From contig NZ_CP133721.1 in assembly GCF_031326205.1 (NCBI RefSeq), positions 558,001 to 622,000 on the forward strand: 64,000 nt of DNA, given 5' to 3'. Both the position numbers and the translations under genes were made by a program. This DNA is from Flavobacterium sp. 20NA77.7 (GTDB lineage Bacteria; Bacteroidota; Bacteroidia; Flavobacteriales; Flavobacteriaceae). Under the pieces are notes generated by a model. It saw only the letters and a program-made list of their open reading frames with translations, was not told where the DNA came from and did no database searches. Below are positions 45,201 through 64,000 of the stretch, one piece after another (the first letter of the stretch is position 1; each line of letters starts with the position of its first letter).

Positions 45201-45234
45201 TTGTTTATTTAATAGATTCTTCTAATTATATTTG
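45201..45234 (+). promoter_or_regulatory. Promoter of surface cassette 1 (TTG-23-TATATTTG)
   Basis: TTG 45201-45203 and TATATTTG 45227-45234 followed by CAT. The same TATATTTGCAT and following T-rich stretch occur at 62952 before the second cassette. The remaining gap from lpxK (45070-45200) is very AT-rich and shows no terminator-grade hairpin. Confidence 0.6.
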
Positions 45235-45287
45235 CATGTTAATTTTTTAATCTTTTATTAGAGAGGTTAACATAATAATAATTAATA

Positions 45288-45767
45288 ATGCGGATATTTA
45301 TTATAGTTATGTTGTTATCTGTAGGCAATGTTGTTTATGGTCAACAGCTTCATCATGAGATGTTAAGTTCCCAAGGGGGCAGTTCAGTTACATCAAGTGG
45401 TTATTTAGTTCGTTATACGGTTGGTCAACAATCGGTTACGGGTACTTCTACAACAGGTTATGTTGTTCAGCAAGGTTTTCAGCAAAGTAATTGGGGAAGA
45501 ATACTTTCACAGAATACAATTTCTGTTGTTACTACTGTTTATCCAAATCCGTTTGTTGATTTGGTTAAATTTTCCTTTTCAAGTTCCCCGGGTAGTACTA
45601 TCGATGTTTTAGTTTTTGATATTTTAGGTCGTTTGGTTCATTCGGAGTCGGTACAAAATGATTCGAATTTAATTTCGCTAGATTTAAAAAAATTATCCAG
45701 TGCTGAATATTTAGTAAAACTATCTTCAGGAAGCTATATTCATTCAGCAAAAATTATAAAACAATGA
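45288..45767 (+). CDS. Small T9SS type A sorting-domain protein, cassette 1 copy
   Basis: The 159-residue exported protein has signal peptide MRIFIIVMLLSVGNVVYGQQ, a short repeat-like region seen in many Bacteroidota secreted proteins (SSQGGSSVTSSG, VGQQSVTGTST, VVQQGFQQSNW), and a T9SS sorting domain from about residue 83 (TVYPNPFVDLVKF, VFDILGRLV, LSSAEYLVKL). It is little more than a sorting domain with a short head. Its stop overlaps the start of the beta-barrel gene (ATGA), so the two are translationally coupled. A nearly identical copy is at 63017. Role unknown; possibly a surface-exposed adaptor of the cassette. Confidence 0.85.
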   Translation: MRIFIIVMLLSVGNVVYGQQLHHEMLSSQGGSSVTSSGYLVRYTVGQQSVTGTSTTGYVVQQGFQQSNWGRILSQNTISVVTTVYPNPFVDLVKFSFSSSPGSTIDVLVFDILGRLVHSESVQNDSNLISLDLKKLSSAEYLVKLSSGSYIHSAKIIKQ

Positions 45768-46402
45768 TGCAAAGAGTTATGTTGATTTTGGTTTTACTAG
45801 TAAGCCAATCTCTATTTTCACAGGAGTTATTTTTCAATTTAGGGAGTAATTCTACGGTTTACAATTACAAAAATTCCTTAGGTCAATCTAATCCTAATTT
45901 ACGTTCTTCTACAGGTTCTTTTTATGAATTTGGTTATGAGTTTTTATTTGGAGGAGCAAGTTCTAGTATGGAAAGTAATTTTTCTTATGCTGCCAGTTTG
46001 ACCTTAAATCAATTTAATGCAAAAGGTGGAGATTTTAATAACACGTATTCTTGGAATACGAGTTATTTAGGTATACAGAATGCTGTTTTGGGTACGGTAG
46101 TGCGTTCTTCTAAAAACACTTTTGTTGTTAAGCTTAAAGCAGGCTTGAATACAAGTACTATTGTTAAAGGGGAACAAACCCTTAACAATATGGTTTATGA
46201 TATTAAGAATCATTCCGAGTTTAAAGGCTTGTTAGTACAACCTATGGGTGGAGTTGATTTACGATTAGAGCTTACCGAATCTATTTTATTAAGTGCAGGA
46301 TATAATTATTCTAAAGCCTTTAATGTTTCGAATAAATCCTCGGAGAAATTAGGTTTTTCAACCCATCAAATTCAATTAGGTCTTCATTATAATATAAATT
46401 AA
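45473..46402 (+). repeat. Cassette head duplication, copy 1
   Basis: From about 45473 through the barrel gene the DNA is nearly identical to 63202-64000, 17.73 kb downstream. The upstream part of the small T9SS gene (signal peptide) is clearly more diverged. Only scattered single-base changes are visible in the shared part. Confidence 0.9.
45764..46402 (+). CDS. Small outer-membrane beta-barrel protein, cassette 1 copy
   Basis: I cannot assign a named family. The 212-residue protein has signal peptide MMQRVMLILVLLVSQSLFSQ and then alternating strands with Tyr/Phe girdles (FYEFGYEFLFGG, NTYSWNTSYLGIQ, TFVVKLKAGLNT, VDLRLELTESILLSAGYNYS) ending in HQIQLGLHYNIN, the pattern of an 8- to 10-stranded outer-membrane barrel. 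It is much shorter than the PorP/SprF proteins that accompany type B T9SS substrates. Coupled to the small T9SS gene by a 4-bp overlap and followed after 11 bp by the giant fibre gene. A truncated near-identical copy is at 63493. Confidence 0.75.
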   Translation: MMQRVMLILVLLVSQSLFSQELFFNLGSNSTVYNYKNSLGQSNPNLRSSTGSFYEFGYEFLFGGASSSMESNFSYAASLTLNQFNAKGGDFNNTYSWNTSYLGIQNAVLGTVVRSSKNTFVVKLKAGLNTSTIVKGEQTLNNMVYDIKNHSEFKGLLVQPMGGVDLRLELTESILLSAGYNYSKAFNVSNKSSEKLGFSTHQIQLGLHYNIN

Positions 46403-46413
46403 GAAAGAAAAGA

Positions 46414-49400
46414 ATGAGAAAGATATATTTATTTTTAGTAGTACTGGTATCGTTTGTTGGATTTGCTCAAAATGGCATTTCCTACCAGGCATTAATAGTA
46501 AATCCTGCTGGCGAGCAATTACCAGGAGTTAATAATACAAATACCCCTTTATCAAACAAATTGGTTTGTTTACGTTTTGCTATAATTGATCATACAAATC
46601 AAATAGAATACCTAGAAACTCAGAAAGTGACTACAGATGCTTATGGTATTGTGAATTTAGTTATTGGTACAGGTCAACAAGTAGGAGGGTATGCGTCTAC
46701 CTTTTCGAATGTTGTTTGGGGTAATAATCCAAAAAGTTTACGTGTTGAATTAGATGTTAATGGTATTTGTACCTATTTTACAACGATAAGTAATCAACCT
46801 TTCACCTATGTTCCTTTTGCGTATTATGCGGCCAATACTGATGTTGAAAATGCTACTACCATTAGTACAGGTTTGGTTCAATTGGCAGGAGATTTAGGCG
46901 GTGTTGGGACTACAGCTACTGCACCGATAATTTCAAATAATGCGATAACTACAGCAAAGTTAAATAATGGTGCTGTTACTCCGATAAAGATAGCTTCAGG
47001 AGCGAATAATACGGTTTTAGTTACTGATTCGACTGGGAATGTGGCTTGGATAGATAGCGCTTCGTTTGGTGCAGTTGCCGATCAAACCACGATTCAGGGA
47101 GCGGGAACAACAGCGAATCCCTTCAAAGTAAAAGATTTAGGAATCGTAACAAATAAAATTGCAGATTTAGCGGTGACTAATGCTAAATTAGCAGCAGATG
47201 CTGTAACCACTGATAAGATATTAGACGGGGAAGTTCAAACGGTTGATATTAAAAATTTAAATGTTACAACACCAAAACTTGCGGATGCTGCTGTAACTAC
47301 TGAAAAAATAGCTTCAGGCGGTAACAATAAAGTATTAGTAACTGACAATTCAGGTACAGTAGCATGGATTGATAAAGATGCTTTCGGTGTAATGGCAGAT
47401 CAAATTACTATTGAAGGCGCCGGTACAACAGCTAATCCATTCAAAGTAAAAGACTTAGGAATTGTAACAAATAAACTTGCAGATTTAGCAGTAACCAATG
47501 CTAAATTAGCAGCCGATGCTGTAACCACTGATAAGATATTAGATGGAGAAGTTCAAACAGCTGATATCAAAAATTTAAATGTAACTACTACTAAATTAGC
47601 TGATGCAGCAGTTACAACTTCAAAAATAGCTTCGGGTACAAATAATACCGTATTAGTTACTGACGCAACAGGTGCGGTGGCCTGGATAGATAGCGCCTCA
47701 TTTGGAGCAGTTGCCGATCAGACTACGATTCAGGGAGCCGGTACAACAACTAGTCCATTCAAAGTAAAAGATTTAGGAATCGTAACAAATAAAATTGCAG
47801 ATTTAGCAGTTACTAATGCTAAATTAGCAGCCGATGCTGTAACCACTGATAAGATATTAGATGGAGAAGTTCAAACAGCTGATATCAAAAATTTAAATGT
47901 AACTACTACTAAATTAGCTGATGCAGCAGTTACAACTTCAAAAATAGCTTCGGGTACAAATAATACCGTATTAGTTACTGACGCAACAGGTGCGGTGGCT
48001 TGGATAGATAGCGCTTCATTTGGAGCAGTTGCTGATATGACTTCCATTGAAGGAGCTGGTACAACTGCAAGTCCATTCAAAGTAAAAGATTTAGGGATAG
48101 TTACCAATAAAATTGCAACTGCTGCAGTAACACCGAATAAGATTGCACCAGGTTCTAATAATACTGTTTTAGTAACAGATTTTATGGGAAATGTAGCATG
48201 GATTGATAGCGGTTCTTTCGGTGCAGTTGCAGATATGACTTCTATCGAAGGTTTAGGTACTACTGCAAGTCCATTTAAAGTTAAGGATTTGGGAATAATT
48301 ACCGCTAAGTTAGCCGATGGCGCAGTGGTAACTTCTAAAATAGCTAATGCTGCGGTAACTACAACAAAAATAGCTTCTGGTGGAAATAGTAAAGTACTGG
48401 TTACAGATAATACAGGTGTAGTAGCATGGATTGATGCGACAGCGTTTGGAGCAGTAGCAGATATGAATACTATAGAAGGCTCAGGAACTACAGCAAGTCC
48501 CTTTAAAGTAAAAGACTTAGGTATAATCACAGCTAAATTAGCCGATGGCGCAGTTACAACAGTTAAAATTGCAGATTTGAATGTAACGACTTCAAAAATT
48601 GCGGATGCCAACGTAACTACTGCAAAGCTTGCTGATTTAAATGTTACTACCAATAAATTAGCTAATGCAGCCGTAACCACTACAAAGATAGCTTCAGGTG
48701 GAAATAGTAAAGTACTGGTGACAGATAATACAGGTGTAGTAGCATGGATTGACGCAACAGCCTTTGGAGCAGTGGCCGACATGAGTACCATAGAAGGCGC
48801 AGGAACTTCAGCAAGCCCCTTTAAAGTAAAAGATTTAGGTATCATTACTGCTAAAATCGCTGATAATGCTGTAACAACTGACAAAATTGCGGATTTAAAT
48901 GTAACAACAAATAAAGTAGCCAACAACGCCATCACCACTTCAAAGCTAGCGGATTTAAACGTAACGACTACCAAATTAGCTGATGCTGCGGTAACCACTA
49001 CAAAGATTGCATCAGGAGGTAACAATAAAGTATTGGTCACAGATAACACAGGCGCAGTAGCTTGGATAGACGGTACAGCTTTTGGGGCAGTAGCAGATCA
49101 AAGCACTATAGAAGGCGCAGGAACCACTGCAAGCCCATTTAAAGTAAAAGACTTAGGAATCATCACTGCTAAACTAGCCGATGGTGCAGTAACTACAATA
49201 AAAATAGCGGATGCCAATGTAACCACCGCTAAGATAGCAGACAGTAACATAACCACCGCAAAAATAGCAGATGCCAATGTTACCAATGCCAAATTAGCTA
49301 CCGATGCGGTTACTACAGGCAAAATATTAGACGGAACGATTATCGTAGATGATTTAGCAAACAACGCTGTTGAAACAGCAAAAATTAAAGATTTAAATGT

Positions 49401-52400
49401 AACGACTACCAAATTAGCTGATGCTGCGGTAACGACTACAAAGATTGCTTCAGGCGGAAACAACAAAGTATTAGTGACGGATAACACAGGCGCAGTTGCT
49501 TGGATAGACGGGACATCCTTTGGCGCCGTAGCAGATCAAACAACCATTGAAGGTGCAGGAACCACTGCAAGTCCATTCAAAGTAAAAGACTTAGGCATCA
49601 TCACAGCTAAGTTAGCTGACAACGCTGTAACAACTATTAAGATAGCCGATGCAAATGTAACGACTGCAAAAATTGCAGACTCCAATATAACGACATCAAA
49701 AATAGCTGATGCTAATGTTACTAATGCCAAACTAGCAACTGATGCAGTTACTACCGGCAAAATATTAGACGGCACGATTATCGTAGATGATTTAGCAAAC
49801 AACGCAGTTGAAACAGCAAAAATCAAAGATTTAAACGTAACCACAACCAAACTAGCCGATGCAGCTGTAACTACTACGAAAATTGCTTCAGGAGGTAACA
49901 ATAAAGTATTGGTCACAGATAACACAGGCGCAGTGGCTTGGATAGACGGAACAGCTTTTGGGGCAGTAGCAGACCAAAGCACTATTGAAGGCGCAGGAAC
50001 TACAGCCAGTCCATTTAAAGTAAAAGACTTAGGCATCATCACAGCTAAACTAGCAGACAATGCCGTAACTACTATTAAAATAGCTGATGCAAATGTAACC
50101 ACAGCAAAAATTGCAGATTCCAATGTAACGACATCGAAAATAGCTGATGCAAACGTTACCAATGCTAAACTAGCAACTGATGCAGTTACTACAGGCAAAA
50201 TATTAGACGGCACGATTATCGTAGATGATTTAGCAAACAACGCAGTTGAAACAGCAAAAATCAAAGATTTAAATGTAACCACAACTAAATTAGCCGATGC
50301 AGCCGTAACCACTACGAAGATTGCTTCAGGAGGTAACAACAAAGTATTGGTAACAGATAATACAGGCGCAGTAGCTTGGATAGACGGGACGGCCTTTGGG
50401 GCAGTAGCAGACCAAAGCACCATTGAAGGCGCAGGAACTACAGCCAGTCCATTTAAAGTAAAAGACTTAGGCATCATCACAGCTAAACTAGCAGACAATG
50501 CCGTAACTACTATTAAAATAGCTGATGCAAATGTAACCACAGCAAAAATTGCAGATTCAAATGTAACGACATCAAAAATAGCTGATGCTAATGTTACCAA
50601 TGCTAAACTAGCAACTGATGCAGTTACTACAGGCAAAATATTAGACGGCACGATTATCGTAGATGATTTAGCAAACAACGCAGTTGAAACAGCCAAAATC
50701 AAAGATTTAAATGTAACCACAACCAAACTAGCCGATGCGGCTGTAACCACTACGAAGATTGCATCAGGAGGTAACAATAAAGTATTGGTCACAGATAACA
50801 CAGGCGCAGTAGCTTGGATAGACGGTACAGCCTTTGGGGCAGTAGCAGACCAAAGCACTATTGAAGGCGCAGGAACTACAGCCAGTCCATTTAAAGTAAA
50901 AGACTTAGGTATTATCACTGCTAAACTAGCAGACAATGCCGTAACTACTATTAAAATCGCCGATGCAAATGTAACGACTGCAAAAATTGCAGACTCCAAT
51001 ATAACGACATCAAAAATAGCTGATGCAAACGTTACCAATGCTAAACTAGCAACTGATGCAGTAACTACAGCCAAAATATTAGACGGCACGATTATCGTAG
51101 ATGATTTAGCGAACAACGCTGTTGAAACAGCAAAAATCAAAGATTTAAACGTAACCACAACCAAACTAGCCGATGCGGCTGTAACTACTACGAAGATTGC
51201 TTCAGGAGGTAATAATAAAGTATTGGTGACGGATAACACAGGTGCAGTGGCTTGGATAGACGGTACAGCCTTTGGGGCAGTAGCAGACCAAAGCACTATT
51301 GAAGGCGCAGGAACTACAGCAAGTCCTTTTAAAGTAAAAGACTTAGGCATCATCACAGCTAAACTAGCAGACAATGCCGTAACTACTATTAAAATAGCTG
51401 ATGCAAATGTAACCACAGCAAAAATTGCAGATTCCAATATAACGACATCAAAAATAGCTGATGCAAATGTAACGACAGCCAAGATAGCCGATTCAAATGT
51501 AACAAATGCTAAATTAGCTACTGATGCTGTAACAACAGATAAAATAATTAATGCAACAATTATAAATGAAGATATTGCAGATAATACTATCACAACTGAA
51601 AAAATAGCAGGTCAAATTGCTGTTACTGAAGGCGGCACTGGGTCAGATATGAGTACAACTACTGGATATGTTAAACAAGCCAGTACGGGTGCTAGTTTTA
51701 CAACTGTAACCACAATACCAGTCGCTGATGTAACGGGAGCTGTCAGAAAAGTTAACGGAACGTTGCCTAATTCTAATGGTGAGGTAACAATAAATTGGGG
51801 TACTGTCTATTCAGGTACTTTATCAAATATTGCGACGGTTGTGCCAAATCCAGCTAATGGGGATACTTATGTAATTGCAAATGATTCTTCTACAAATAAT
51901 GGTAGAACATTTATATATGATGGTACAAATTGGTTAGAAGTAACTCCAAATCAAGCTGCTTTAGACGCAAGGTATTTGAGATTAACGGGCGATTCTATGC
52001 AAGGAAATATTATTATTCCTTCTAATAATAAAATCACACTAACTGATACACCAACAAATGCAACAGACGCAGCAAATAAAGCATATGTAGATGCTCAAAT
52101 TGCCAATGGTGCTCCTGATGCAACAAGTGCAGTTAATGGTAAAGTAAGATTAGCAGGAGATTTAGCAGGAACAGGTTCTACGGCGGCTACTCCAATAATT
52201 TCAAACAACGCCATCACTACTTCAAAGCTAGCGGATGTAAACGTAACCACAACCAAACTAGCCGATGCGGCTGTAACTACTACGAAGATTGCATCAGGAG
52301 GTAATAATAAAGTATTGGTGACGGATAACACAGGTGCAGTGGCTTGGATAGACGGAACAGCTTTTGGGGCAGTAGCAGACCAAAGCACCATTGAAGGCGC

Positions 52401-55400: not shown

Positions 55401-58131
55401 TATTGCAGATAATACTATTAACACTTCAAAAATCGCAGGTCAGATTGCTGTGTCAGATGGAGGAACAGGTTCTGATATGAGTGCAACAACTGGATATGTT
55501 AAACAAGCTAGTATTGGTGCTAATTTTACAACAGTAACATCAATACCTGTAGCCGATGTAGCTGGTGCTGTAAGAAAAGTTAATGGTGGTTTACCAGATG
55601 GCAATGGAAATGTAACGGTTGATTTTGGAACAGTATCAACAGGTATTTTATCCAATATTCCTTTAGTAACAAATCCTGAGCTAACAAATGGGGACATTTA
55701 TGTAGTATCAGGGGATTCAAATCCTTTGAATAATGGATTAACCTATATTTTTGATGGTTCTCAATGGCAAGAAGTAACTCCTAATCAAGCCGCATTAGAC
55801 GCTCGTTATTTGAGATTGGCTGGGGATACAATGCAAGGAAATATTGTAATTCCTGCTACTAAAAAAATTACAATAACAGATGCTCCAAATACTGCAACAG
55901 ATGCTGTTAATAAAGCCTATGTTGATGCGCAAATTGCTAGTGGCGCCCCAGATGCAACTACTAGTTTAAAAGGTAAAATACAATTAGGAGGAGATCTTGC
56001 AGGTACAGGTACTACAGCTGCAGCACCTATAATATCAGATAATGCAATAACAAACAATAAAATAAATTCAGACGCTGTTACTACGGATAAAATTCAAAAC
56101 GGAACAATTATTGGTTCAGATTTAGCAAATGGTATTATTACTAATGCCAAATTAGCAGAAACGATAACCGTTCCAAATGGAGGGACTGGAGCAACAACAC
56201 TTACGGGTTATGTAAAAGGAAACGGAACAAATGCAATGACAGCTGTTACTTCAATTCCTGTGGCAGATATTGTTGGTGCACAAACAACAGCGAATTTAGC
56301 TACTGATATTACAGCAAATACAGGTTCAAATACATTATATCCTTCAGTTGCTGCGGTAGAAAATTTTGTTGCAAATAGTGCTACACCAGATGCTACTACT
56401 TCAAGTAAAGGAAAAATAAAATTAGCAGGAGATTTAGCGGGTACCGCTGATTTACCTACGGTTCCGGCTTTAGCAACAAAAGCCCCAATTTCTTCACCGA
56501 GCTTTACAGGTGTCCCTTTAGCACCTACAGCATCAGCTGGAACTAATTCAACGCAAATTGCTACAACCGAATTTGTTACAACTGCAGTGGCAGCAGCTAC
56601 AATAGCAGATGCTTCAAGTTCTGTGAAAGGTAAAATTCAATTAGCAGGTGATTTAGGAGGTTCTAATGATGCTGCAAATCCAACGATTTCAACTGGTGCA
56701 GTATCCACTTCAAAATTAGCGGATAATGCGGTTACAACTATAAAAATTACAGATGAAAATGTAACTACAATTAAAATTGCAAATGATGCCATTACTAATG
56801 CTAAACTAGCAGATAATGCAGTGCAATCTGAAAATATTGTTGATGGAAATATAACGACAGCTAAATTAGCAAATACTTCGGTTACTACTTCTAAAATTGT
56901 ATCAGGTTCAAATAATACTGTTTTAGTTACAGATAACTTAGGTGCTGTGTCTTGGATTGACAGAAGTGCTTTTGGTGCAGTGGCAGATCAAATCACAATA
57001 GAAGGCGCAGGAACGACACTTTCTCCTTTTGCCGTAAAAGATGGTGCTATTACGACAGCAAAATTAGCAGATAATGCAGTTACAACAATAAAAATTAATG
57101 ATGATGCTGTTACTACATCAAAAATTACTGGAAGTGCTATTACCACTGTAAAACTAGCTGATAATGCTGTAACTACAGTTAAGATTGCAAATGCTTCCAT
57201 AACGAATGCTAAACTTGGTGAAATTGTTTCTGTAGAAAAAGGAGGTTCCGGTACAAATATGTCTTCTACCTCTGGGTATGTTAAGCAAGCAACTGCAGGT
57301 GCTAATTTTACAACTACATCAACAATACCAGTTGCAGATGTAACAGGAGCAGTAAGAAAAGTTAATGGTTCTAGTCCTGATGCCAATGGAAATGTAACAG
57401 TAACATTTGGAACTGTATTTACGGGTACTTTAGCGAATAGACCAACTGTAGTTTCTAGTCCTAACAATGGAGATATTTACGTGGTTTCGAGTGATTCAAA
57501 TGCATTAAATAACGGTATTACATATATTTATGATGGTTCTGCATGGCAAGAAGTAACAGCGAACCAAGCTTCTTTAGATGCGCGATATTTGAAATTGGCA
57601 GGAGGAACCATGCAAGGCGATTTAGCAATTCCTACCGGAAAAGATTTAACAATTGCCGATGCACCTACAAATGCAACAGATGCTGTAAATAAAGCATACG
57701 TAGATAGTCAAATAACGGCTAATACTACGCTAGACGCAACTTCTACAGTAAAAGGAAAACTGCAATTAGCAGGAGATTTAGGTGGGACGGCTGTAGCTCC
57801 TTCAGTTATCAAATTACAAGGAACGTCAGTTAGTAGTACAGCACCGATAAATGGGCAATTGTTGCAATATGATGGTGCTAATTGGAAGCCAGTAAATGTG
57901 AATACAATTGTTAAAATGGAGACTGATGAATTTGTAGCTACTGCTGCACAAGGTTCTTTTACATTGACAGCTACTCCTATCGGAAAAATTGCTATGTATA
58001 TTAATGGAGTTAGAGTTCCAAAAGCAGCAATATCAGTATCAGGAACTACTGTGACATATACAAATTCAAATAATGGAGGGTACGTAGTCTTGGCTAATGA
58101 CAGAATAACATTTGATTATATTACTAATTAA
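46414..58131 (+). CDS. Giant decapeptide-repeat, phage tail-fibre-like exported protein
   Basis: The 3,905-residue protein has signal peptide MRKIYLFLVVLVSFVGFAQ and a Bacteroidota N-terminal beta-domain (about 20-145, ISYQALIVNPAGEQLPG to PFAYYAANTD). The bulk consists of 10-residue repeats of the form DANVTTAKIA, organised in units of up to 146 residues, each with VLVTDNTGAVAWID and IEGAGTTASPFKVKDLG; I count about 22 units. Modules resembling phage tail fibres break the array at about 1732-1929, 3009-3200 and 3608-3783 (LDARYLRL, MQGNI, ATDAANKAYVD). It ends in FTLTATPIGKIAMYING and DRITFDYITN, with no T9SS sorting domain. Likely a long, trimeric, elastic surface fibre (inference). It follows the barrel gene by 11 bp. 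Confidence 0.85.
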   Translation: MRKIYLFLVVLVSFVGFAQNGISYQALIVNPAGEQLPGVNNTNTPLSNKLVCLRFAIIDHTNQIEYLETQKVTTDAYGIVNLVIGTGQQVGGYASTFSNVVWGNNPKSLRVELDVNGICTYFTTISNQPFTYVPFAYYAANTDVENATTISTGLVQLAGDLGGVGTTATAPIISNNAITTAKLNNGAVTPIKIASGANNTVLVTDSTGNVAWIDSASFGAVADQTTIQGAGTTANPFKVKDLGIVTNKIADLAVTNAKLAADAVTTDKILDGEVQTVDIKNLNVTTPKLADAAVTTEKIASGGNNKVLVTDNSGTVAWIDKDAFGVMADQITIEGAGTTANPFKVKDLGIVTNKLADLAVTNAKLAADAVTTDKILDGEVQTADIKNLNVTTTKLADAAVTTSKIASGTNNTVLVTDATGAVAWIDSASFGAVADQTTIQGAGTTTSPFKVKDLGIVTNKIADLAVTNAKLAADAVTTDKILDGEVQTADIKNLNVTTTKLADAAVTTSKIASGTNNTVLVTDATGAVAWIDSASFGAVADMTSIEGAGTTASPFKVKDLGIVTNKIATAAVTPNKIAPGSNNTVLVTDFMGNVAWIDSGSFGAVADMTSIEGLGTTASPFKVKDLGIITAKLADGAVVTSKIANAAVTTTKIASGGNSKVLVTDNTGVVAWIDATAFGAVADMNTIEGSGTTASPFKVKDLGIITAKLADGAVTTVKIADLNVTTSKIADANVTTAKLADLNVTTNKLANAAVTTTKIASGGNSKVLVTDNTGVVAWIDATAFGAVADMSTIEGAGTSASPFKVKDLGIITAKIADNAVTTDKIADLNVTTNKVANNAITTSKLADLNVTTTKLADAAVTTTKIASGGNNKVLVTDNTGAVAWIDGTAFGAVADQSTIEGAGTTASPFKVKDLGIITAKLADGAVTTIKIADANVTTAKIADSNITTAKIADANVTNAKLATDAVTTGKILDGTIIVDDLANNAVETAKIKDLNVTTTKLADAAVTTTKIASGGNNKVLVTDNTGAVAWIDGTSFGAVADQTTIEGAGTTASPFKVKDLGIITAKLADNAVTTIKIADANVTTAKIADSNITTSKIADANVTNAKLATDAVTTGKILDGTIIVDDLANNAVETAKIKDLNVTTTKLADAAVTTTKIASGGNNKVLVTDNTGAVAWIDGTAFGAVADQSTIEGAGTTASPFKVKDLGIITAKLADNAVTTIKIADANVTTAKIADSNVTTSKIADANVTNAKLATDAVTTGKILDGTIIVDDLANNAVETAKIKDLNVTTTKLADAAVTTTKIASGGNNKVLVTDNTGAVAWIDGTAFGAVADQSTIEGAGTTASPFKVKDLGIITAKLADNAVTTIKIADANVTTAKIADSNVTTSKIADANVTNAKLATDAVTTGKILDGTIIVDDLANNAVETAKIKDLNVTTTKLADAAVTTTKIASGGNNKVLVTDNTGAVAWIDGTAFGAVADQSTIEGAGTTASPFKVKDLGIITAKLADNAVTTIKIADANVTTAKIADSNITTSKIADANVTNAKLATDAVTTAKILDGTIIVDDLANNAVETAKIKDLNVTTTKLADAAVTTTKIASGGNNKVLVTDNTGAVAWIDGTAFGAVADQSTIEGAGTTASPFKVKDLGIITAKLADNAVTTIKIADANVTTAKIADSNITTSKIADANVTTAKIADSNVTNAKLATDAVTTDKIINATIINEDIADNTITTEKIAGQIAVTEGGTGSDMSTTTGYVKQASTGASFTTVTTIPVADVTGAVRKVNGTLPNSNGEVTINWGTVYSGTLSNIATVVPNPANGDTYVIANDSSTNNGRTFIYDGTNWLEVTPNQAALDARYLRLTGDSMQGNIIIPSNNKITLTDTPTNATDAANKAYVDAQIANGAPDATSAVNGKVRLAGDLAGTGSTAATPIISNNAITTSKLADVNVTTTKLADAAVTTTKIASGGNNKVLVTDNTGAVAWIDGTAFGAVADQSTIEGAGTTASPFKVKDLGIITAKLADNAVTTIKIADANVTTAKIADSNVTTSKIADANVTNAKLATDAVTTGKILDGTIIVDDLANNAVETAKIKDLNVTTTKLADAAVTTTKIASGGNNKVLVTDNTGAVAWIDGTAFGAVADQSTIEGAGTTASPFKVKDLGIITAKLADGAVTTIKIADANVTTAKIADSNITTAKIADANVTNAKLATDAVTTGKILDGTIIVDDLANNAVETAKIKDLNVTTTKLADAAVTTTKIASGGNNKVLVTDNTGAVAWIDGTSFGAVADQTTIEGAGTTASPFKVKDLGIITAKLADNAVTTIKIADANVTTAKIADSNITTSKIADANVTNAKLATDAVTTGKILDGTIIVDDLANNAVETAKIKDLNVTTTKLADAAVTTTKIASGGNNKVLVTDNTGAVAWIDGTAFGAVADQSTIEGAGTTASPFKVKDLGIITAKLADNAVTTIKIADANVTNAKLATDAVTTGKILDGTIIVDDLANNAVETAKIKDLNVTTTKLADAAVTTTKIASGGNNKVLVTDNTGAVAWIDGTAFGAVADQTTIEGAGTTASPFKVKDLGIITAKLADNAVTTIKIADANITTAKLADASVSTAKVIDGNITTSKLANAAVTTTKIASGGNNKVLVTDNTGVVAWIDGTAFGAVADQSTIEGAGTTASPFKVKDLGIITAKLADNAVTTIKIADANVTTAKIADSNVTTAKIADANVTSAKIADSNVTTAKVADLNITTTKLADSAVTTTKIASGGNNKVLITDNTGAVAWIDGTAFGAVADQSTIEGAGTTASPFKVKDLGIITAKLADNAVTTIKIADANITTAKLADASVSTAKVIDGNITTAKLAEANVTTAKLADANVTTSKLADASVTTSKIASGGNSKVLVTDNTGVVTWIDGNTFGAIADMTTIEGAGTTASPFKVKDLGIITAKLADNAVTSAKILDGTILVDDLANNAVETAKIKDLNVTTSKLANDAVTTGKILDGTILNADIADNTINTSKIAGQIAVSDGGTGSDMSATTGYVKQASIGANFTTVTSIPVADVAGAVRKVNGGLPDGNGNVTVDFGTVSTGILSNIPLVTNPELTNGDIYVVSGDSNPLNNGLTYIFDGSQWQEVTPNQAALDARYLRLAGDTMQGNIVIPATKKITITDAPNTATDAVNKAYVDAQIASGAPDATTSLKGKIQLGGDLAGTGTTAAAPIISDNAITNNKINSDAVTTDKIQNGTIIGSDLANGIITNAKLAETITVPNGGTGATTLTGYVKGNGTNAMTAVTSIPVADIVGAQTTANLATDITANTGSNTLYPSVAAVENFVANSATPDATTSSKGKIKLAGDLAGTADLPTVPALATKAPISSPSFTGVPLAPTASAGTNSTQIATTEFVTTAVAAATIADASSSVKGKIQLAGDLGGSNDAANPTISTGAVSTSKLADNAVTTIKITDENVTTIKIANDAITNAKLADNAVQSENIVDGNITTAKLANTSVTTSKIVSGSNNTVLVTDNLGAVSWIDRSAFGAVADQITIEGAGTTLSPFAVKDGAITTAKLADNAVTTIKINDDAVTTSKITGSAITTVKLADNAVTTVKIANASITNAKLGEIVSVEKGGSGTNMSSTSGYVKQATAGANFTTTSTIPVADVTGAVRKVNGSSPDANGNVTVTFGTVFTGTLANRPTVVSSPNNGDIYVVSSDSNALNNGITYIYDGSAWQEVTANQASLDARYLKLAGGTMQGDLAIPTGKDLTIADAPTNATDAVNKAYVDSQITANTTLDATSTVKGKLQLAGDLGGTAVAPSVIKLQGTSVSSTAPINGQLLQYDGANWKPVNVNTIVKMETDEFVATAAQGSFTLTATPIGKIAMYINGVRVPKAAISVSGTTVTYTNSNNGGYVVLANDRITFDYITN
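49003..50399 (+). repeat. Recent internal duplication, copy 1
   Basis: The segment matches 52723-54059 base for base over 49003-50093 (1,091 bp, offset 3,720) and again over 50154-50399 (offset 3,660) with one substitution (50361 T, 54021 C). Copy 1 keeps 60 bp that copy 2 lacks. Confidence 0.92.
52723..54059 (+). repeat. Recent internal duplication, copy 2, with a 60-bp in-frame deletion
   Basis: Near-identical to 49003-50399 but missing 60 bp after 53813. The lost piece in copy 1 is flanked by the direct repeat AAAATAGCTGATGCAAA (near 50077 and 50137), as expected for slippage or recombination between neighbouring repeat units. Confidence 0.9.
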
Positions 58132-58139
58132 TATATTTG
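58112..58139 (+). promoter_or_regulatory. Internal promoter before the 897-residue protein gene (TTG-17-TATATTTG)
   Basis: TTG 58112-58114 lies in the end of the giant gene and TATATTTG 58132-58139 starts right after its stop codon. It gives a leader of about 105 nt, long for this genome. Confidence 0.55.
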
Positions 58140-58150
58140 TAAAAAATACA

Positions 58151-58222: not shown

Positions 58223-58248
58223 ACCACTAAAAAATAAAATTTAAACAT

Positions 58249-60942
58249 ATGAAAAAAGTATTTATTTTAGTTTTATTCTTTAATTTTATTTTGGCATACG
58301 CCCAAGATAAAGTAGTCAGTAAAAATGGTAAAGAAATAGAAGTCAATAAAGATGCTTCAACAACCTCAAAGGGAGTCGTAAAATTAGCTGGTGACCTTGG
58401 CGGAACTGCTGATTTACCAACTGTCCCTGGATTAACAACAAAGCAAGATGTATTAACGTTAACAACAACGGGAACTGGAGCGGCTACGTTAACAGGATCT
58501 ACTTTAAATATACCCACTCCAAGTCAGGGTTCTCCTTTTACTCTGCAAGGAACTACTACTGATGCGGGTACAGATAAAACGAGTGTGATAGATAGATCAG
58601 GTAGTATTGAAGTGAAAAGTGGTTATTTAAAGGCTATTGGAAACGGAAATACTTTTACAATAGATCCAACTGATGCTACTGGACCTAGATTAAAATTAGG
58701 GCCAGTGGCTGTTCCAAATGGTTATTTTGAATTAGGCTCGTACAATTCTATAAATAATTTTGACACTAAAACAAGAGATTTTAATTTGATGAGTACGGCT
58801 AAAAATAATGCCTTTTATTTAAAAAATGATACTGGATTTATTGGAATTGGAATAGGAAATCCACTTTCTCTTTTTTCTAATGCTGCCAGTACTACAAATT
58901 TTGTTTCCTCAAATAATTCTACCCAAAGTACAACAGGTATCTCTTGGTTAACAAATACAACGGGTTATAATACTTCTTTATATAATTCTAATAATGTAGT
59001 TGGATCAAATGGACTTCAAATAAAAGTAGCCAATACCTCAAATCAAACAATAGCTTTAGAAGTGGGACAAAATACTACATTGAGTGGTACATCAATCCCT
59101 TTGTTTAATGTATTGGGTAATGGAAATGTAGGCATTGGCACCAATACTCCAGCTACTAAATTAGAAATTACATCAGGTATATCAGGTACATCAGGATTAA
59201 GATTTACTAATTTAACTAGTGCAGCTACGCCTTCTTCAAATAGTAACTTTTTATCCTTGGACGCTTCAGGAAATGTTATTTATGCTACAAGTGGAACTAC
59301 ATTACCTTTAATTACTGCTAATGGAATAAATTCTGCTACAACAGAAGTAAGGGATTATAATGTGTGGGCAAACCGAGGAAATGGTTTCTATATTACTGAT
59401 TCAGCTGGTGCAATTGGTAATGCCATTCCTAACAATGGTGCATGGTTTGCCTTGTCTCAAGTAGCAAATGGGTCAAATTATTTTGGGCAAACTTCTTTAA
59501 ACGATCAAGGATTTTGGTTTAGAGGAGGGCCAACTTCAACTATTGTTTCAAATACATGGTTTCGAACACTTTCATTAAATGCTAATTCAAGATTTGTAGC
59601 TCAATGGGATAATACCACTAATAATACGGTTACATTGAATAATAGAGATAATGGTCCTTTGGCTTTTGCAACTAATGATTTAGAACGAATGCGAATATTA
59701 GCTAATGGAAATATAGGTATAGGAACCACAACACCCTCAGCTCAATTAGAAGTGGCTACAAACAATGCATTATCTACAATAATCAGAAGGGGCGGTACGG
59801 CAGATCTTACACCCGCTAATTTAGTTTTACAGAAGACTATGGGAGCTGATGCCGCAACGCATGGTGCTGTAACTAATGGAAATTTTGTAGGTAGAATTTT
59901 ATTCAGTGCTTCAAATGGGACTACTTATCCTACAAACGGAACTGATATTGTAGGTTACACTGCCGGTTTACAATCTGCAACTAACAATGGTGGTGGAATA
60001 TTGTTTAGAACGGTACCACAAAATAGCATTGCACCGTCTATAGAAAGAATGCGAATTGAACATAATGGTAATGTAGGTATCGGCACGCCAAATCCAACTA
60101 CAAATTTAGATATTGTAGGTGGAATGAGTTTGAGAAATGTAGTTGGAGCTACAGGTTCTAATTATGGAATAGAGTTTAATACCAATTCAAATTCTCCTCG
60201 CATTGATTGGATATATAATGGATCGTATACGGGTTCTTTTGCGGGAGATTCTGATTTTTTCTTTCGCCTTCAAAATAGTAAGCAAGGTTCAGGAGGATTT
60301 AGGTTTATGACCAATCCAAGTGGTACTGCTTTGGAAAGATTGACTATTTTAAATAATGGAAACATTGGTATTGGGAACACTGCACCTTCTCAAAAAATGA
60401 ATATTGTAGGAATCAATAATCAACCTGCTACGACGGGAACTGCATCAAATGCTATCTTGCGTATAGAAGGAAGCACTAATCATGTATTGGATTTTGGTAC
60501 TTATGCTAATAGTCCATTTGGTTCATATGTTCAATCAGTCGATAAATCAAATTTAGCGACGGGCTTACCTCTTACTCTTAATCCTGTAGCGGGTAACGTA
60601 GGAATTGGGACCTCAAATCCAACCTCTAAATTAGAAGTTAATGGTGCGGCAACAAATACTACTGCATTCAATGCAGCTGCTGGCACAAGTATTGATTTTT
60701 CTAAAAGTAATTTAGCTTATACCACTGCCAGTGCAGGAGCGTTTACTTTGACAAATTTGAAAGATGGGGGAACGTATACGTTAGCAGTACAAGGTGCTAC
60801 TTCGGGGACTTCTAGTTTTACAGCAACAGGTTTTACTTTTAAATCTCCAAATAATAGCGCTACAATTGCAAGTAAACACACTTTATATACTTTTATAGTA
60901 ATGGGAACTACGGTTTATTATTATATGACAACCGGATTATAA
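58249..60942 (+). CDS. Tail-fibre-like exported protein with NVGIGT repeats
   Basis: The 897-residue protein has signal peptide MKKVFILVLFFNFILAYAQ. Near the N-terminus KGVVKLAGDLGGTADLPTVP is the same linker found six times in the preceding giant. The middle has about six GN(V/I)GIG motifs followed by a Pro and a KLEV-like strand (GNVGIGTNTPATKLEI, GNIGIGTTTPSAQLEV), typical of phage tail-fibre and Bacteroidota surface proteins. The C-terminus (GTSIDFSKSNLAYTT to TVYYYMTTGL) is a beta-rich cap, with no S74 chaperone domain and no T9SS sorting domain. It probably forms a second fibre or the tip of the first. It has its own candidate promoter and is 8 bp from the next gene. Confidence 0.8.
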   Translation: MKKVFILVLFFNFILAYAQDKVVSKNGKEIEVNKDASTTSKGVVKLAGDLGGTADLPTVPGLTTKQDVLTLTTTGTGAATLTGSTLNIPTPSQGSPFTLQGTTTDAGTDKTSVIDRSGSIEVKSGYLKAIGNGNTFTIDPTDATGPRLKLGPVAVPNGYFELGSYNSINNFDTKTRDFNLMSTAKNNAFYLKNDTGFIGIGIGNPLSLFSNAASTTNFVSSNNSTQSTTGISWLTNTTGYNTSLYNSNNVVGSNGLQIKVANTSNQTIALEVGQNTTLSGTSIPLFNVLGNGNVGIGTNTPATKLEITSGISGTSGLRFTNLTSAATPSSNSNFLSLDASGNVIYATSGTTLPLITANGINSATTEVRDYNVWANRGNGFYITDSAGAIGNAIPNNGAWFALSQVANGSNYFGQTSLNDQGFWFRGGPTSTIVSNTWFRTLSLNANSRFVAQWDNTTNNTVTLNNRDNGPLAFATNDLERMRILANGNIGIGTTTPSAQLEVATNNALSTIIRRGGTADLTPANLVLQKTMGADAATHGAVTNGNFVGRILFSASNGTTYPTNGTDIVGYTAGLQSATNNGGGILFRTVPQNSIAPSIERMRIEHNGNVGIGTPNPTTNLDIVGGMSLRNVVGATGSNYGIEFNTNSNSPRIDWIYNGSYTGSFAGDSDFFFRLQNSKQGSGGFRFMTNPSGTALERLTILNNGNIGIGNTAPSQKMNIVGINNQPATTGTASNAILRIEGSTNHVLDFGTYANSPFGSYVQSVDKSNLATGLPLTLNPVAGNVGIGTSNPTSKLEVNGAATNTTAFNAAAGTSIDFSKSNLAYTTASAGAFTLTNLKDGGTYTLAVQGATSGTSSFTATGFTFKSPNNSATIASKHTLYTFIVMGTTVYYYMTTGL

Positions 60943-60950
60943 TAGGATAT

Positions 60951-61790
60951 ATGCAGAAAATAGTAGTTTCCTTTTTATTGTTTGTTGTTACAAATGCTTT
61001 TGGACAAATTATGGGGACACCTTATATTGTTCCACTGGCTACTTTTCAAAATAATGTTACTTTTAATTATACGGGTGCTCAACAATCATGGGTTGTTCCT
61101 TTAGATGTTACGAAGATTGGAGTTGAATTAGTAGGCGCTCAAGGTGGGGGTACAAATGCGGGTAAGGGAGGAAAAGTAACTGCTGAATTAACCGTTACGC
61201 CCGGAACTACTTTGATTTTAATTGTTGGTGGACAGCCCATAAATGCTAACGCTGTATATGGTGGAGGTGGTATAGGAGGATCAAATGGTGCAACAACTAC
61301 TAGAAATGGTTTTGCTGGTGGAGGACTAGCGGGAATATATTTAACTTCTGAGAATCAAGCGAATGCATTTGCTATTGCAGGAGGTGGAGGCGGAAATTCT
61401 GGGTTAAGCGCATTGCTTGGCGGTGTGGCCGGTGCACCAAATGGTACAAGTGGAGGTCAAGGAAATTATGCAGGATATCAAGAAGGAGGAAAAGGCGCTA
61501 CTCAAAGTGCAGGAGGAGCAAGAGGAGTTTCAATAGATCCAGCCACCGTGGCTTCAACTGCTGGTACAGCATTGAATGGAGGGAAAGGAGGTTCTATTAA
61601 TTCTTCTACATGGACAGCTGGTGGAGGAGGTGGAGCAGGATATTTTGGCGGTGGTGGAGGAGCTGGAGGCGGATCTTCGGTAGGGGCAGGAGGAGGAGGC
61701 TCTTCTTTTGTGAGTGCTACTGCTGGTACTAATATTGTATATACCAGTGGATTTAATGTGGGTAATGGTAAAATAATTATTTTCTATTAA
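60951..61790 (+). CDS. Exported glycine-rich domain protein
   Basis: The 279-residue protein has signal peptide MQKIVVSFLLFVVTNAFGQ, then GTPYIVP right after the cut site. A beta-rich domain (QQSWVVPLDVTKIGVELVGAQ) is followed by very Gly-rich segments (GGGGIGGSNGATTT, AGGGGGAGYFGGGGGAGG) ending in NVGNGKIIIFY. This resembles the glycine-rich domain found in bacterial surface proteins and in ALK-type receptors, which folds as polyproline-II-like Gly helices. No sorting domain is present. It is 8 bp after the tail-fibre-like gene and 1 bp before the next, so it belongs to the same operon. Confidence 0.78.
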   Translation: MQKIVVSFLLFVVTNAFGQIMGTPYIVPLATFQNNVTFNYTGAQQSWVVPLDVTKIGVELVGAQGGGTNAGKGGKVTAELTVTPGTTLILIVGGQPINANAVYGGGGIGGSNGATTTRNGFAGGGLAGIYLTSENQANAFAIAGGGGGNSGLSALLGGVAGAPNGTSGGQGNYAGYQEGGKGATQSAGGARGVSIDPATVASTAGTALNGGKGGSINSSTWTAGGGGGAGYFGGGGGAGGGSSVGAGGGGSSFVSATAGTNIVYTSGFNVGNGKIIIFY

Positions 61791-61791
61791 T

Positions 61792-62817
61792 ATGACTAAA
61801 TATAAATTAATTTTTGCTTTTATATTAATTCAATTCTTAACGGCTAATAGTACCGCACAAGTAGTAGGTACGCCTTATATTATACCTGTCGACAATAGGC
61901 CTATATTGGATCAGGTTGGCTTAACCCCTTCATTTGCATTTAGTACTAGAAAATTACGTGAAGGATATACTGGGCCTGCTATTCGTTTACGTAGAGCAAC
62001 TGACAATTCAGAAATCGATGTTGCTTTTGATAGCGATGGAGTAGTTAGTGGCAATAGCATAGTTACATTAGTGGTTGTTGGTAGTAGTGGCGCTGCATTA
62101 GGGCAAACCACTACTTTGTCTATTTATAAAGGAGCTAATCCTTTATATGTTACTATTTGGTATGATCAAGGAGCAAATGGCTATAACGGAATACAGGCAA
62201 CGACTGCTAGGCAACCTGTGTTTGCATTAACTTCAGCGGGTGCGACTAATCAATATGCAACTTTACAGTTTACGGGTACATCTAAGCATAGTGTTGTTGT
62301 AAATAAGTCTATGAATACCTTATTGACAAGTGGAATAAGAGGTAGTGTTTTAACTATAGCAAAAGTATCAAATGGTACTTCTACTAACAACTCCTTTGGA
62401 CATTCAGATGCAAATGACAATAGTATCCGTTGGTCAGCACACATGAACTGGCCAGACGGTGCAAACCAAATGTATACTGATTTAGGTTCTATGGAAGGGG
62501 TAAGAAATTTTTTAAATGATGGAACAGTAGGCCTCAATAAATATAAGCAATATTCTATAGTTAGACTTGTAAACAGCAAAATCGTTAGGGTAAGTGGAAT
62601 TGATAGAAATAATACTTCACTTAGCTTAACATCAAGAACTTGGCAGGCAAATTCAACTTTTGGGGTAGGCTTAACAACGGGTTCGCTTGATACCTCGTTT
62701 GGTCAAAATGGGTTTACAGGAAATATTCCTGAGTTTATACTATATAATATTGATCTTTCATCTTCTCAATTTCAATTGTTAGAGAATAATCAAATTTCAT
62801 TTTGGGGAGCAAATTAA
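61792..62817 (+). CDS. Exported protein resembling the GH54 alpha-L-arabinofuranosidase B catalytic fold
   Basis: The 341-residue protein has signal peptide to about residue 23 (NSTAQ), then VVGTPYIIPVDN, the same mature start as its upstream neighbour. The rest matches the AbfB-type concanavalin-like domain in its markers: FSTRKLREGYTGPAIRLRR, IDVAFDSDG, VTIWYDQGANGYN and QPVF. I cannot verify that the catalytic Glu/Asp pair is present. In this setting, behind two fibre genes, a sugar-binding (lectin) role is at least as likely as hydrolysis. No T9SS sorting domain. Last gene of cassette 1. Confidence 0.75.
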   Translation: MTKYKLIFAFILIQFLTANSTAQVVGTPYIIPVDNRPILDQVGLTPSFAFSTRKLREGYTGPAIRLRRATDNSEIDVAFDSDGVVSGNSIVTLVVVGSSGAALGQTTTLSIYKGANPLYVTIWYDQGANGYNGIQATTARQPVFALTSAGATNQYATLQFTGTSKHSVVVNKSMNTLLTSGIRGSVLTIAKVSNGTSTNNSFGHSDANDNSIRWSAHMNWPDGANQMYTDLGSMEGVRNFLNDGTVGLNKYKQYSIVRLVNSKIVRVSGIDRNNTSLSLTSRTWQANSTFGVGLTTGSLDTSFGQNGFTGNIPEFILYNIDLSSSQFQLLENNQISFWGAN

Positions 62818-62904
62818 TTTTTTTGTGTGTAATTTCTTAATTAATTAATACTTTGTGTAACTATTTGATAAATAAGTGTTTAAAATTATGTAGTACATAT
62901 TCTA

Positions 62905-62926
62905 CACATCTTTATGTGGTTTTTTA
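62905..62926 (+). terminator. Weak terminator-like hairpin at the end of cassette 1
   Basis: CACAT (62905-62909), loop CTTT, ATGTG (62914-62918), then G and six T. Only five pairs, and an alternative pairing TGTAG/CTACA (62889-62893, 62902-62906) competes. It may be the end of the cassette transcript. Confidence 0.4.
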
Positions 62927-62951
62927 ATATTTTTTTTAGTTGTATTATAAC

Positions 62952-62959
62952 TATATTTG
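62952..62959 (+). promoter_or_regulatory. Candidate -7 box (TATATTTG) of cassette 2
   Basis: The box and the next bases (CAT, then TTAATTTTT) match the cassette 1 promoter region at 45227. A TTG at the right -33 distance is not seen here. It lies 57 bp before ATG 63017. Confidence 0.5.
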
Positions 62960-63016
62960 CATTTTAATTTTTAGTCTTTAATGAATTGTTAAAGATTTAC
63001 ATAATTCAAACAATAA

Positions 63017-63496
63017 ATGCGGATATTTGTTACAATTATGTTGTTAGCTTTAGGATTTAATTCTTATTGTCAACAACTTCATCATGAGATGATAAGTTCT
63101 CAAGGGGGTAGTTCAGTTACTTCTAGTGGTCATTTAGTTCGATATACGGTTGGTCAACAATCTGTTATTGGTACTTCTACGAATGGCTATGTTGTTCAGC
63201 AAGGTTTTCAGCAAAGTAATTGGGGTAGAATAGTGTCAGAGAATACAATTTCTGTTGTTACTACTGTTTATCCAAATCCGTTTGTTGATTTGGTTAAATT
63301 TTCCTTTTCAAGTTCCCCGGGTAGTACTATCGATATTTTAGTTTTTGACATTTTAGGTCGTTTGGTTCATTCGGAGTCGGTACAAAATGATTCGAATTTA
63401 ATTTCGCTAGATTTAAAAAAATTATCCAGTGCTGAATATTTAGTAAAACTATCTTCAGGAAGCTATATTCATTCAGCAAAAATTATAAAACAATGA
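63017..63496 (+). CDS. Small T9SS type A sorting-domain protein, cassette 2 copy
   Basis: Paralogue of the gene at 45288 with the same length (159 residues). I count 16 amino-acid differences, nine of them in the first 18 residues (signal peptide MRIFVTIMLLALGFNSYCQQ) and only one in about the last 80, the sorting domain. The DNA of the 3' part is almost identical. This gradient points to recent duplication with later gene conversion, or to selection against change in the sorting domain alone; the silent-site identity favours the former. Its stop overlaps the next start by ATGA, as in cassette 1. Confidence 0.87.
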   Translation: MRIFVTIMLLALGFNSYCQQLHHEMISSQGGSSVTSSGHLVRYTVGQQSVIGTSTNGYVVQQGFQQSNWGRIVSENTISVVTTVYPNPFVDLVKFSFSSSPGSTIDILVFDILGRLVHSESVQNDSNLISLDLKKLSSAEYLVKLSSGSYIHSAKIIKQ

Positions 63497-64000
63497 TACA
63501 AAGAGTTATGTTGATTTTGGTTTTACTAGTAAGCCAATCTCTATTTTCACAGGAGTTATTTTTCAATTTAGGGAGTAATTCTACGGTTTACAATTACAAA
63601 AATTCCTTAGGTCAATCTAATCCTAATTTACGTTCTTCTACAGGTTCTTTTTATGAATTTGGTTATGAGTTTTTATTTGGAGGAGCAAGTTCTAGTATGG
63701 AAAGTAATTTTTCGTATGCTGCTAGTTTGACCTTAAATCAATTTAATGCAAAAGGCGGAGATTTTAATAACACGTATTCATGGAATACGAGTTATTTAGG
63801 TATCCAGAATGCTGTTTTGGGTACGGTAGTGCGTTCTTCTAAAAATACTTTTGTTGTTAAGCTTAAAGCAGGGTTGAATACAAGTACTATTGTTAAAGGA
63901 GAACAAACACTTAACAATGTGGTTTATGATATTAAGAATCATTCCGAGTTTAAAGGCTTGTTAATACAACCTATGGGAGGCGTTGATTTGCGATTAGAAC
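63202..64000 (+). repeat. Cassette head duplication, copy 2 (runs off the window)
   Basis: Nearly identical DNA to 45473-46271. It continues to the window edge, so its end and whatever follows the second barrel gene cannot be seen. Confidence 0.9.
63493..64000 (+). CDS. Small outer-membrane beta-barrel protein, cassette 2 copy, 3'-truncated by the window edge
   Basis: The frame is open from ATG 63493 (MIQRVMLILVLLV) to the window end, 169 codons. Compared with the copy at 45764, I see only three amino-acid differences over that stretch (M2I, NNMVY to NNVVY, LLVQP to LLIQP). Same signal peptide, same barrel pattern, same overlap with the small T9SS gene. In cassette 1 the next gene is the giant repeat protein; what follows here is outside the window. 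Confidence 0.85.
   Translation, partial: MIQRVMLILVLLVSQSLFSQELFFNLGSNSTVYNYKNSLGQSNPNLRSSTGSFYEFGYEFLFGGASSSMESNFSYAASLTLNQFNAKGGDFNNTYSWNTSYLGIQNAVLGTVVRSSKNTFVVKLKAGLNTSTIVKGEQTLNNVVYDIKNHSEFKGLLIQPMGGVDLRLE

Follow-up and report, generated by a model that had tools for sequence, protein, structure and literature searches.

The 64,000-nucleotide window analysed here, positions 558001-622000 of the single-contig, 2.33-Mb genome of Flavobacterium sp. 20NA77.7 (genome coordinates below refer to that contig), contains two cassettes of surface genes. Each comprises h1, encoding a small protein with a type IX secretion system (T9SS) sorting domain; h2, encoding a predicted outer-membrane barrel; and a giant fibre gene whose product begins with a constant domain, gN. 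We consider the odds somewhat better than even that these genes specify a modular surface-fibre system, in which a fibre resembling the mosaic adhesive trimer (MAT) proteins of Bdellovibrio has its T9SS tag and its mount supplied in trans; each mechanistic step is proposed from sequence. That h1, h2 and the gN fibre are partners is held with considerable confidence. Export of the fibre by the T9SS with the signal in trans is a tentative proposal.

Linkage and co-evolution of h1, h2 and gN

An alignment of the barrel was used to scan a collection of species genomes, giving 26 loci, and 397 Flavobacteriaceae genomes, 45 of which matched at 50 places (three in the genome studied here). Neighbourhoods were examined for all 73 barrel places outside this genome, no two of which have an identical barrel end. 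An earlier note on this DNA had named barrels lacking a giant fibre as the outcome that would speak against its idea. The opposite was found, with a gN fibre at 68 of the 73 loci; of the remaining five, four (L038, L041, L111 and L129) are cut off by a contig edge and the fifth, L040, lacks a fibre. h1 lies on the same strand in 68/73, and was not found in L091 and L131, where the contig starts inside h2. All three genes are present in 63/73 loci, in the order h1-h2-gN (51), h2-h1-gN (10) or h1-gN-h2 (2). The median gap between h2 and gN is 10 bases, with seven overlaps among the 57 pairs lying within 300 bases. Most of the cassette's named relatives come from Flavobacterium or are otherwise flavobacterial. 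The cassette, whole or in part, is present in records titled Chryseobacterium gleum, Chitinophaga pinensis and Bifidobacterium breve metagenome-assembled genomes (among L016, L017, L020-L022, L032 and L040); for Bifidobacterium at least, an error of binning or naming seems likely. Several contigs (L018-L024, L031, L032 and L037) end some 0.5-1.4 kb past the barrel, inside the fibre gene. Since contigs end inside these repetitive genes, short-read surveys will undercount the fibres.

gN also occurs without the barrel. It was found in 165 of the 397 Flavobacteriaceae genomes, and 40 loci were picked by hand from the 121 gN genomes without a barrel match, mostly among the stronger matches and not strictly by rank. 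In 27 of these an h1-type gene shares the strand of the fibre and lies no more than 3 kb away, on one side or the other. Three of the 40 proved to carry a recognisable barrel, and L133 and L135-L137 have a 207-aa open reading frame (ORF) resembling a diverged barrel (three read by eye). In four loci (L155, L158, L164 and L168) two to four gN fibres stand in tandem, and the fetched stretch showed no h1; YadA-head and S74 domains were matched in the fibres scanned from L164 and L168. A broader gN profile, applied to 395 Bacteroidota genomes with loci spanning only about 1.5 kb on each side, matched in 88, some weakly. A small protein with a T9SS C-terminal domain (CTD) lies upstream in 20 of the 29 loci of this survey outside the genome studied here (by eye; 19 adjacent, one with a barrel between). 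Fourteen of these 29 loci come from the same family, and the small CTD protein is present in 10 of the other 15 (by eye). Pairs of h1 and gN without a barrel occur elsewhere in Bacteroidota.

The genome itself contains two further units. In the third (L015:7448-19001, genome 125447-137000), h2 and gN overlap by ATGA. A LuxR/TPR gene precedes this unit, and exported PA14, fibrinogen-C-like and phage tail-collar proteins follow it. The fourth (L046:483-10405, genome ~1674500-1684400) pairs h1 with a 1012-aa collagen-like gN fibre and has no barrel. Other genes of L046 encode a T9SS protein, a response-regulator-like protein and a pair of GH54-like surface proteins, of which one is matched by PF09206. 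The earlier note treated h1 and h2 as a constant head pair; the core can nevertheless lack either gene, as L046 (no barrel) and L015 (no h1) illustrate within one genome.

Mirror-tree comparisons, made as correlations of pairwise distances with bootstrapping, used 85 h1-gN pairs, or 71 after dereplication. Across the 71 loci the N-terminal domain of h1 (h1N) correlates with gN at rho 0.81 and with the CTD of its own polypeptide at 0.67, the same value as for CTD and gN. The excess of h1N-gN over h1N-CTD is 0.13 (bootstrap 0.065-0.22), and with gN cut to 61 random columns the CTD-gN correlation was still 0.57-0.65. At the 55 barrel loci the values are 0.72 for gN-h2, 0.66 for h1N-h2, 0.49 for CTD-h2 and 0.47 for CTD-gN. 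We read this as joint evolution of h1N, gN and h2 in lineages with the barrel, the CTD following the T9SS machinery at large. Where the barrel is absent, gene linkage makes up the whole case for partnership.

Regulator-like genes stand divergently beside many loci, one of which (in L016) is of the AraC type by Pfam at its cut-off, and regulation of the cassette looks dedicated. Such regulators would also be expected if h1, h2 and the fibre were independent surface proteins kept together only by shared expression or niche, and at barrel-less loci h1N indeed tracks gN no better than the CTD does. Against this explanation, the genes stay paired throughout Flavobacteriaceae and in further classes of the phylum as well, and h1N tracks gN better than its own CTD over all 71 loci; we judge it quite improbable.

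The array and the constant base of the fibre

The two cassettes lie between an lpxK-like gene and a purine-nucleoside phosphorylase (PNP) gene, with the following features (window coordinates unless marked as genome).

44059..45069, + strand: lpxK-like gene, 336-aa ORF; left flank of the array
45288..45767, + strand: h1 of cassette 1, 159 aa (ORF, domain matches); signal peptide, N-domain of ~60 residues, type A T9SS domain
45764..46402, + strand: h2 of cassette 1, 212 aa (ORF, AlphaFold2); predicted 8-stranded OmpA-type outer-membrane barrel
46414..58131, + strand: fibre of cassette 1, 3905 aa (ORF); repeat body with matches to PHROG tail-fibre families and DUF5907
46471..46842, + strand: gN, constant N-terminal domain of the fibre (profile matches); distant relative of Bdello_MAT_N
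58249..60942, + strand: 897-aa exported fibre with NVGIGT motifs (ORF); variable follower
60951..61790, + strand: 279-aa Gly-rich protein (PF12810)
61792..62817, + strand: 341-aa exported protein (ORF); matches a PHROG virion structural protein, no Pfam match
63017..63496, + strand: h1 of cassette 2 (ORF, DNA identity to cassette 1)
63493..64000, + strand: h2 of cassette 2 (ORF past the window end), running on to genome position 622131
genome 622148-627691: fibre 2, 1847 aa; follows h2 of cassette 2
after fibre 2: Gly-rich 274-aa protein, then the PNP gene at genome 628603

The ORFs agree with the gene order, sizes and ATGA overlap described in the earlier note (the overlap of h1 and h2 in cassette 1 is at 45764-45767), and the giant gene it wondered about beyond position 64000 is present as fibre 2. 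The 3905-, 897-, 279- and 341-aa ORFs have Sec signal peptide-like starts, as it had also said (here judged by eye, without a signal-peptide program). Its grouping of these four proteins behind the head genes survives in part. The giant fibre is core, whereas the 897-, 279- and 341-aa proteins are variable followers, replaced by others elsewhere. A GH54-like identity for the 341-aa protein is plausible, since a similar-looking protein in another cluster of the genome matches the ArabFuran-catal family PF09206, but is not demonstrated by any Pfam match of its own. Repeats in fibre 1 are spaced mostly 318-438 nt from start to start.

The head pair recurs with near-identical DNA, as claimed (92.9% identity overall for h1, 97.3% for h2), yet the duplication extends further than the head genes. 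Fibre genes of the two cassettes are 96.0% identical over the first 150 codons and 93.9% over codons 151-260, beyond which similarity drops to repeat level. Intergenic DNA upstream of h1 shows 60% alignment identity, and h1 itself is 86% identical in its first 74 codons and 98.8% in the remainder. The h2 proteins are 98% identical. Codon differences are mostly synonymous in h2 (13:4) and gN (14:3); in h1 they are not (12:16). Because near-identity runs from h1 through the fibre base, the natural unit appears to be h1, h2 and gN with differing bodies attached, and this unit was probably duplicated or converted recently.

The same division is seen among relatives. In the two copies the first ~130 residues of the fibre (gN) are almost the same, and relatives conserve them too, while the remainder is swapped. 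Thus the earlier idea of giant genes as exchangeable cargo applies to the fibre body and not to gN. Complete barrel-linked fibres (48, including three from this genome) span 501-3905 aa; their first 150 residues are alike in 1128/1128 pairs (median 41% identity) and their last 150 in 106/1128, with the C-termini forming 20 clusters. Among 87 fibre C-termini from barrel and barrel-less loci, Pfam recognised 12 S74, 4 Peptidase_G2, 7 Lcl_C, 2 Fib_succ_major, 2 collagen, 1 C1q and 1 fn3 domains. S74 was matched individually in the barrel-less L164 and L168, and Peptidase_G2 over its cut-off in the barrel-linked L097 and L102. The S74 and G2 chaperone domains, YadA heads and collagen segments of some relatives suggest that the fibre bodies form trimers. 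PF18338 and PF22337, found in some gN proteins, are phage baseplate or fibre repeats. Four further families in the precomputed matches of gN proteins (PF26209, PF26696, PF25832 and PF26707) were absent when their bearers were rescanned, and are left unnamed.

Several of these matches recall phages, as would be expected of a remnant phage tail or contractile injection system: fibre bodies match PHROG tail-fibre families, the third unit has a tail-collar domain, and some gN proteins have fibre or baseplate repeats. The proteins nevertheless have signal-peptide-like starts (by eye), and viral contigs of IMG/VR gave 59 stretches with the pattern, none encoding a gN relative. Further, the flanks of the array are PNP and the lpxK-like gene, and every product of the cluster is an exported surface protein. 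A phage remnant, already disfavoured, is accordingly very improbable.

From its sequence, we take the left-flank ORF to be probably lpxK. A search of 61 genomes of the same genus gave matches in 46, at 51 places, from which 30 PNP loci were made (one being the present one). An lpxK homologue lies upstream of PNP in 25 of the 29 others, with direct overlap in 23 by the gap rule. Given this pairing in other Flavobacterium loci, the 25.5 kb of surface genes here sit inside a usually closed lpxK-PNP pair. No lpxK homologue was found upstream of PNP in L184, L186, L188 and L189, of which L184 and L188 have long open frames there. In L028 and L030 neither lpxK nor PNP was matched, so a shared insertion site with those loci is not shown. 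A second giant gene of the window (29205-40166, 3653 aa) encodes its own type A T9SS domain (genome 597954-598142) and, with this ordinary signal in cis, contrasts with the fibres.

The T9SS tag, the barrel and routes to the surface

The type A T9SS domain of h1 spans residues 84-157 (PF18962, 49.1 bits against a cut-off of 27; TIGR04183, 44.7 bits against 23). It follows an N-domain of ~60 residues with the pattern LHHxM...VGQQS...QQGF. PF18962 is present in all 120 listed h1 homologues, among 490 found, and a search of solved structures with h1 returned a T9SS CTD chain at E 0.0029, followed by an unrelated chain at E 0.42. Genome-wide there are 33 CTD matches, 32 over the cut-off. Open frames no longer than 240 aa account for only four, three of them h1 genes that adjoin gN fibres. 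In L092-L095, L098 and L099, h1 is directly preceded by a larger protein that has an h1/CTD-type match and is truncated by the locus edge (816-859 aa).

T9SS substrates are described, in the passages of PMC12618676 drawn on here, as carrying their own C-terminal signal. None was detected on the fibres. For the four window proteins downstream of h2, neither Pfam nor NCBIfam gave a T9SS match at E<=1, in agreement with the earlier note. Our own CTD profile, derived from the CTDs of h1 and of three other proteins of this genome and so blind to very different tails, matched none of 90 complete gN ORFs (46 of them at barrel loci, 44 elsewhere). Pfam T9SS-tail models at E<=0.001 matched 0/87 of the C-terminal 240-mers, no T9SS-tail model appeared among the 25 listed of 44 NCBIfam families on the fibre C-termini, and precomputed PF18962 was absent from all 120 listed gN proteins (of 144 found in a length-limited search).

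The fibre might instead carry an unrecognised T9SS signal of its own, for example in gN, with h1 or h2 serving as a shuttle in the way that SprF serves SprB. Neighbouring genes for a barrel and a giant adhesin are the known arrangement of type B substrates according to PMC12618676, in the parts consulted. This explanation is improbable, given the scans above and the split of the fibre C-termini into 20 clusters. Many fibres also lack a barrel, and h2 has 8 predicted strands, against 14 in PorV and PorP/SprF-like shuttles according to the cited part of PMC9143113.

The barrel identity given to the 212-residue protein by the earlier note is borne out by prediction. The AlphaFold2 model of h2 is an 8-stranded barrel (pLDDT 90.1), and its best Foldseek matches are OmpA structures (E 2.3e-7, TM 0.54), with NspA, OmpW and OmpX also among the matches. 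The window h2 matches no Pfam, NCBIfam or PHROG family, and has no periplasmic peptidoglycan-binding domain by Pfam scan. Three long h2 relatives (L032, L033 and the second unit of L039) were scanned, and all have the OmpA domain PF00691, which suggests anchorage to the cell wall. With the topology assumed from a periplasmic N terminus, conservation is 0.72 in the strands, 0.72 in loops taken as extracellular and 0.53 in periplasmic turns. The outer halves of the strands score 0.79 and the inner halves 0.66. Random position sets reach the loop value in 2694/10000 draws; the loops alone are not above random, so the contrast is one between the two sides of the barrel. A predicted 8-stranded OmpA-type barrel is expected to be a mount rather than a pore. 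An export channel was considered for h2 and dropped as the leading idea, in view of the 8 predicted strands and the more conserved outer side. A PorP/SprF-type shuttle is not indicated either, as h2 has an OmpA fold with 8 strands and no family match rather than a 14-stranded FadL-type barrel. The earlier suggestion that the head pair exports or anchors the fibres stands as far as the pair belongs with the fibres; the barrel as an export channel is unlikely.

We propose the following scheme (as conjecture). In the periplasm, the N-domain of h1 would bind gN. The type A CTD of h1 would then direct passage through SprA, either of the whole complex or of h1 at a minimum. Once outside, gN would be held by the outward face of h2 together with h1, which PorU would have cleaved and which would be joined to lipid, and the body would project from gN as an adhesive fibre. 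Fibre bodies would be swapped by recombination within the conserved base. The signal in trans, in which the 159-aa adaptor binds the base and carries a giant, probably trimeric fibre through SprA, adaptor and barrel form the mount and such a base and mount are the missing MAT anchor, is a possibility to which we give roughly one chance in three. SprA is present in 88/88 gN genomes against 303/395 overall (nominal hypergeometric 2e-12), an association whose true weight is much lower because SprA absence is clumped in few lineages.

The main rival to export in trans holds that the fibre crosses the outer membrane by another route, h2 and the lipopolysaccharide-linked h1 merely catching gN at the surface. 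The same linkage and co-evolution would be expected, and the greater conservation of the outer side of h2 fits it. It requires an unknown export route, however, while SprA is present in each of the 88 genomes in which the phylum survey matched gN, and a role in capture alone does not explain the regular T9SS tag of the constant partner. We give this anchor-only arrangement about one chance in four.

Several observations weigh against the proposed fibre system as a whole. L040 has h1 and h2 and no fibre. h1 is missing at L106, L122 and the third unit of this genome (L015), and lies on the other strand in L100. Thirteen of the 40 picked non-barrel loci are without h1 by the 3-kb, same-strand rule; four of these are the tandem fibre arrays, and one, L142, does have h1, the fibre having been missed by the ORF caller. 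At barrel loci alone, the excess of h1N-gN over h1N-CTD is borderline (bootstrap -0.004 to 0.28), and 20 barrel-less loci have none (h1N-gN 0.78, CTD-gN 0.78, h1N-CTD 0.72). Mirror-tree correlation itself reflects shared history, not contact. As for SprA, 14 of the 20 listed genomes lacking it (of 92) belong to one family, and the 88 gN genomes include weak gN matches. The window's own fibres have no S74 or other named tip domain, the C-terminus of fibre 1 matching only DUF5907. Finally, the mechanism is derived from sequences and predicted structures, with binding, export and surface exposure all deduced from these.

Relation to known systems

The 2024 paper on the MAT superfamily of Bdellovibrio bacteriovorus describes, in the parts consulted, an invariable N-terminal domain without a homologue in the PDB, which the authors expect to bind a surface element still awaiting identification (PMC10769870). 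gN directly follows the signal peptide, is ~130 aa long and has a beta-rich AlphaFold2 model (pLDDT 79). The model matched no PDB fold at E<=0.001 (best 5.5e-3), which is uninformative, and a sequence search of solved structures with gN found none. The MAT N-domain profile NF053851 matches 28/28 gN rows at E<=1 (best 3.1e-9), and 18/18 rows from which the signal peptide was removed. The window copy scores 27.6 bits with the signal peptide and 24.3 without, below the curated cut-off of 60 bits; the fibre set is therefore placed as a distant MAT variant and not as a member. Across the whole genome, NF053851 at E<=1 matches only the four gN fibre genes (five stretches), none over the cut-off, and one of 14 control genomes also matched, below the cut-off. 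Bdello_MAT_N matches six of the 87 fibre C-termini at E<=0.1, which we take as an artefact because the last 240 residues of short fibres include part of gN (13 of the 83 relative fibres used have 301-387 aa). By these profile comparisons, gN is distantly related to the MAT N-domain. Weak gN matches (E about 6e-8 to 1e-5) also occur in distant families of the phylum, in frames of up to 4489 aa (G655, G647, G636, G554 and others), and are a possible bridge to the MAT proteins.

Judged by titles and the openings of abstracts, the literature searched contained no recognised system of this composition and no description of a CTD-less fibre with the CTD on a partner; the supplementary MAT tables of other bacteria lie outside that coverage. 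The earlier note's remark that it knew of no such described system holds for the whole set, but not for the fibres, which resemble the MAT fibres of Bdellovibrio.

SprB-SprF and other type B T9SS pairs place a giant repetitive adhesin beside a dedicated outer-membrane barrel in a T9SS organism, as here (PMC9143113 and PMC12618676, in the parts consulted). According to the same passages, SprB has its type B CTD in cis, and the FadL-type barrel SprF has 14 strands. In the present array, by contrast, the fibre showed no CTD, a type A CTD is on a separate small protein and 8 strands are predicted for the barrel. The array is not an SprB-SprF pair.

Barrels of the OmpA/OmpX/Ail type have 8 strands, and their extracellular loops are usually their variable part. 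By prediction h2 has this fold in common with them, at ~10% sequence identity. Unlike theirs, its extracellular loops are as conserved as its strands.

The closest likeness is to the MAT fibres, which as described in the cited part of PMC10769870 share a signal peptide, an invariant beta-rich domain of ~130 aa, a long body and swapped tips (S74 chaperone, TNF-like and C-type-lectin folds). Mosaic tips including S74 are found in the relatives as a set rather than in the window's own fibres. Unlike MAT fibres as described there, the present fibre has constant partner genes, namely the T9SS-tagged h1 and often the barrel. A large class of Bacteroidota fibres lacks a detected signal and often stands beside a small tagged protein, which suggests export or anchoring in trans. 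Such an arrangement, if true, would explain how a single conserved base can display many adhesive tips, a parallel on a free-living bacterium to the host-range switching of phages. For the type of surface element left open by the MAT paper, in the same part, h1 and the barrel are concrete candidates (PMC10769870).

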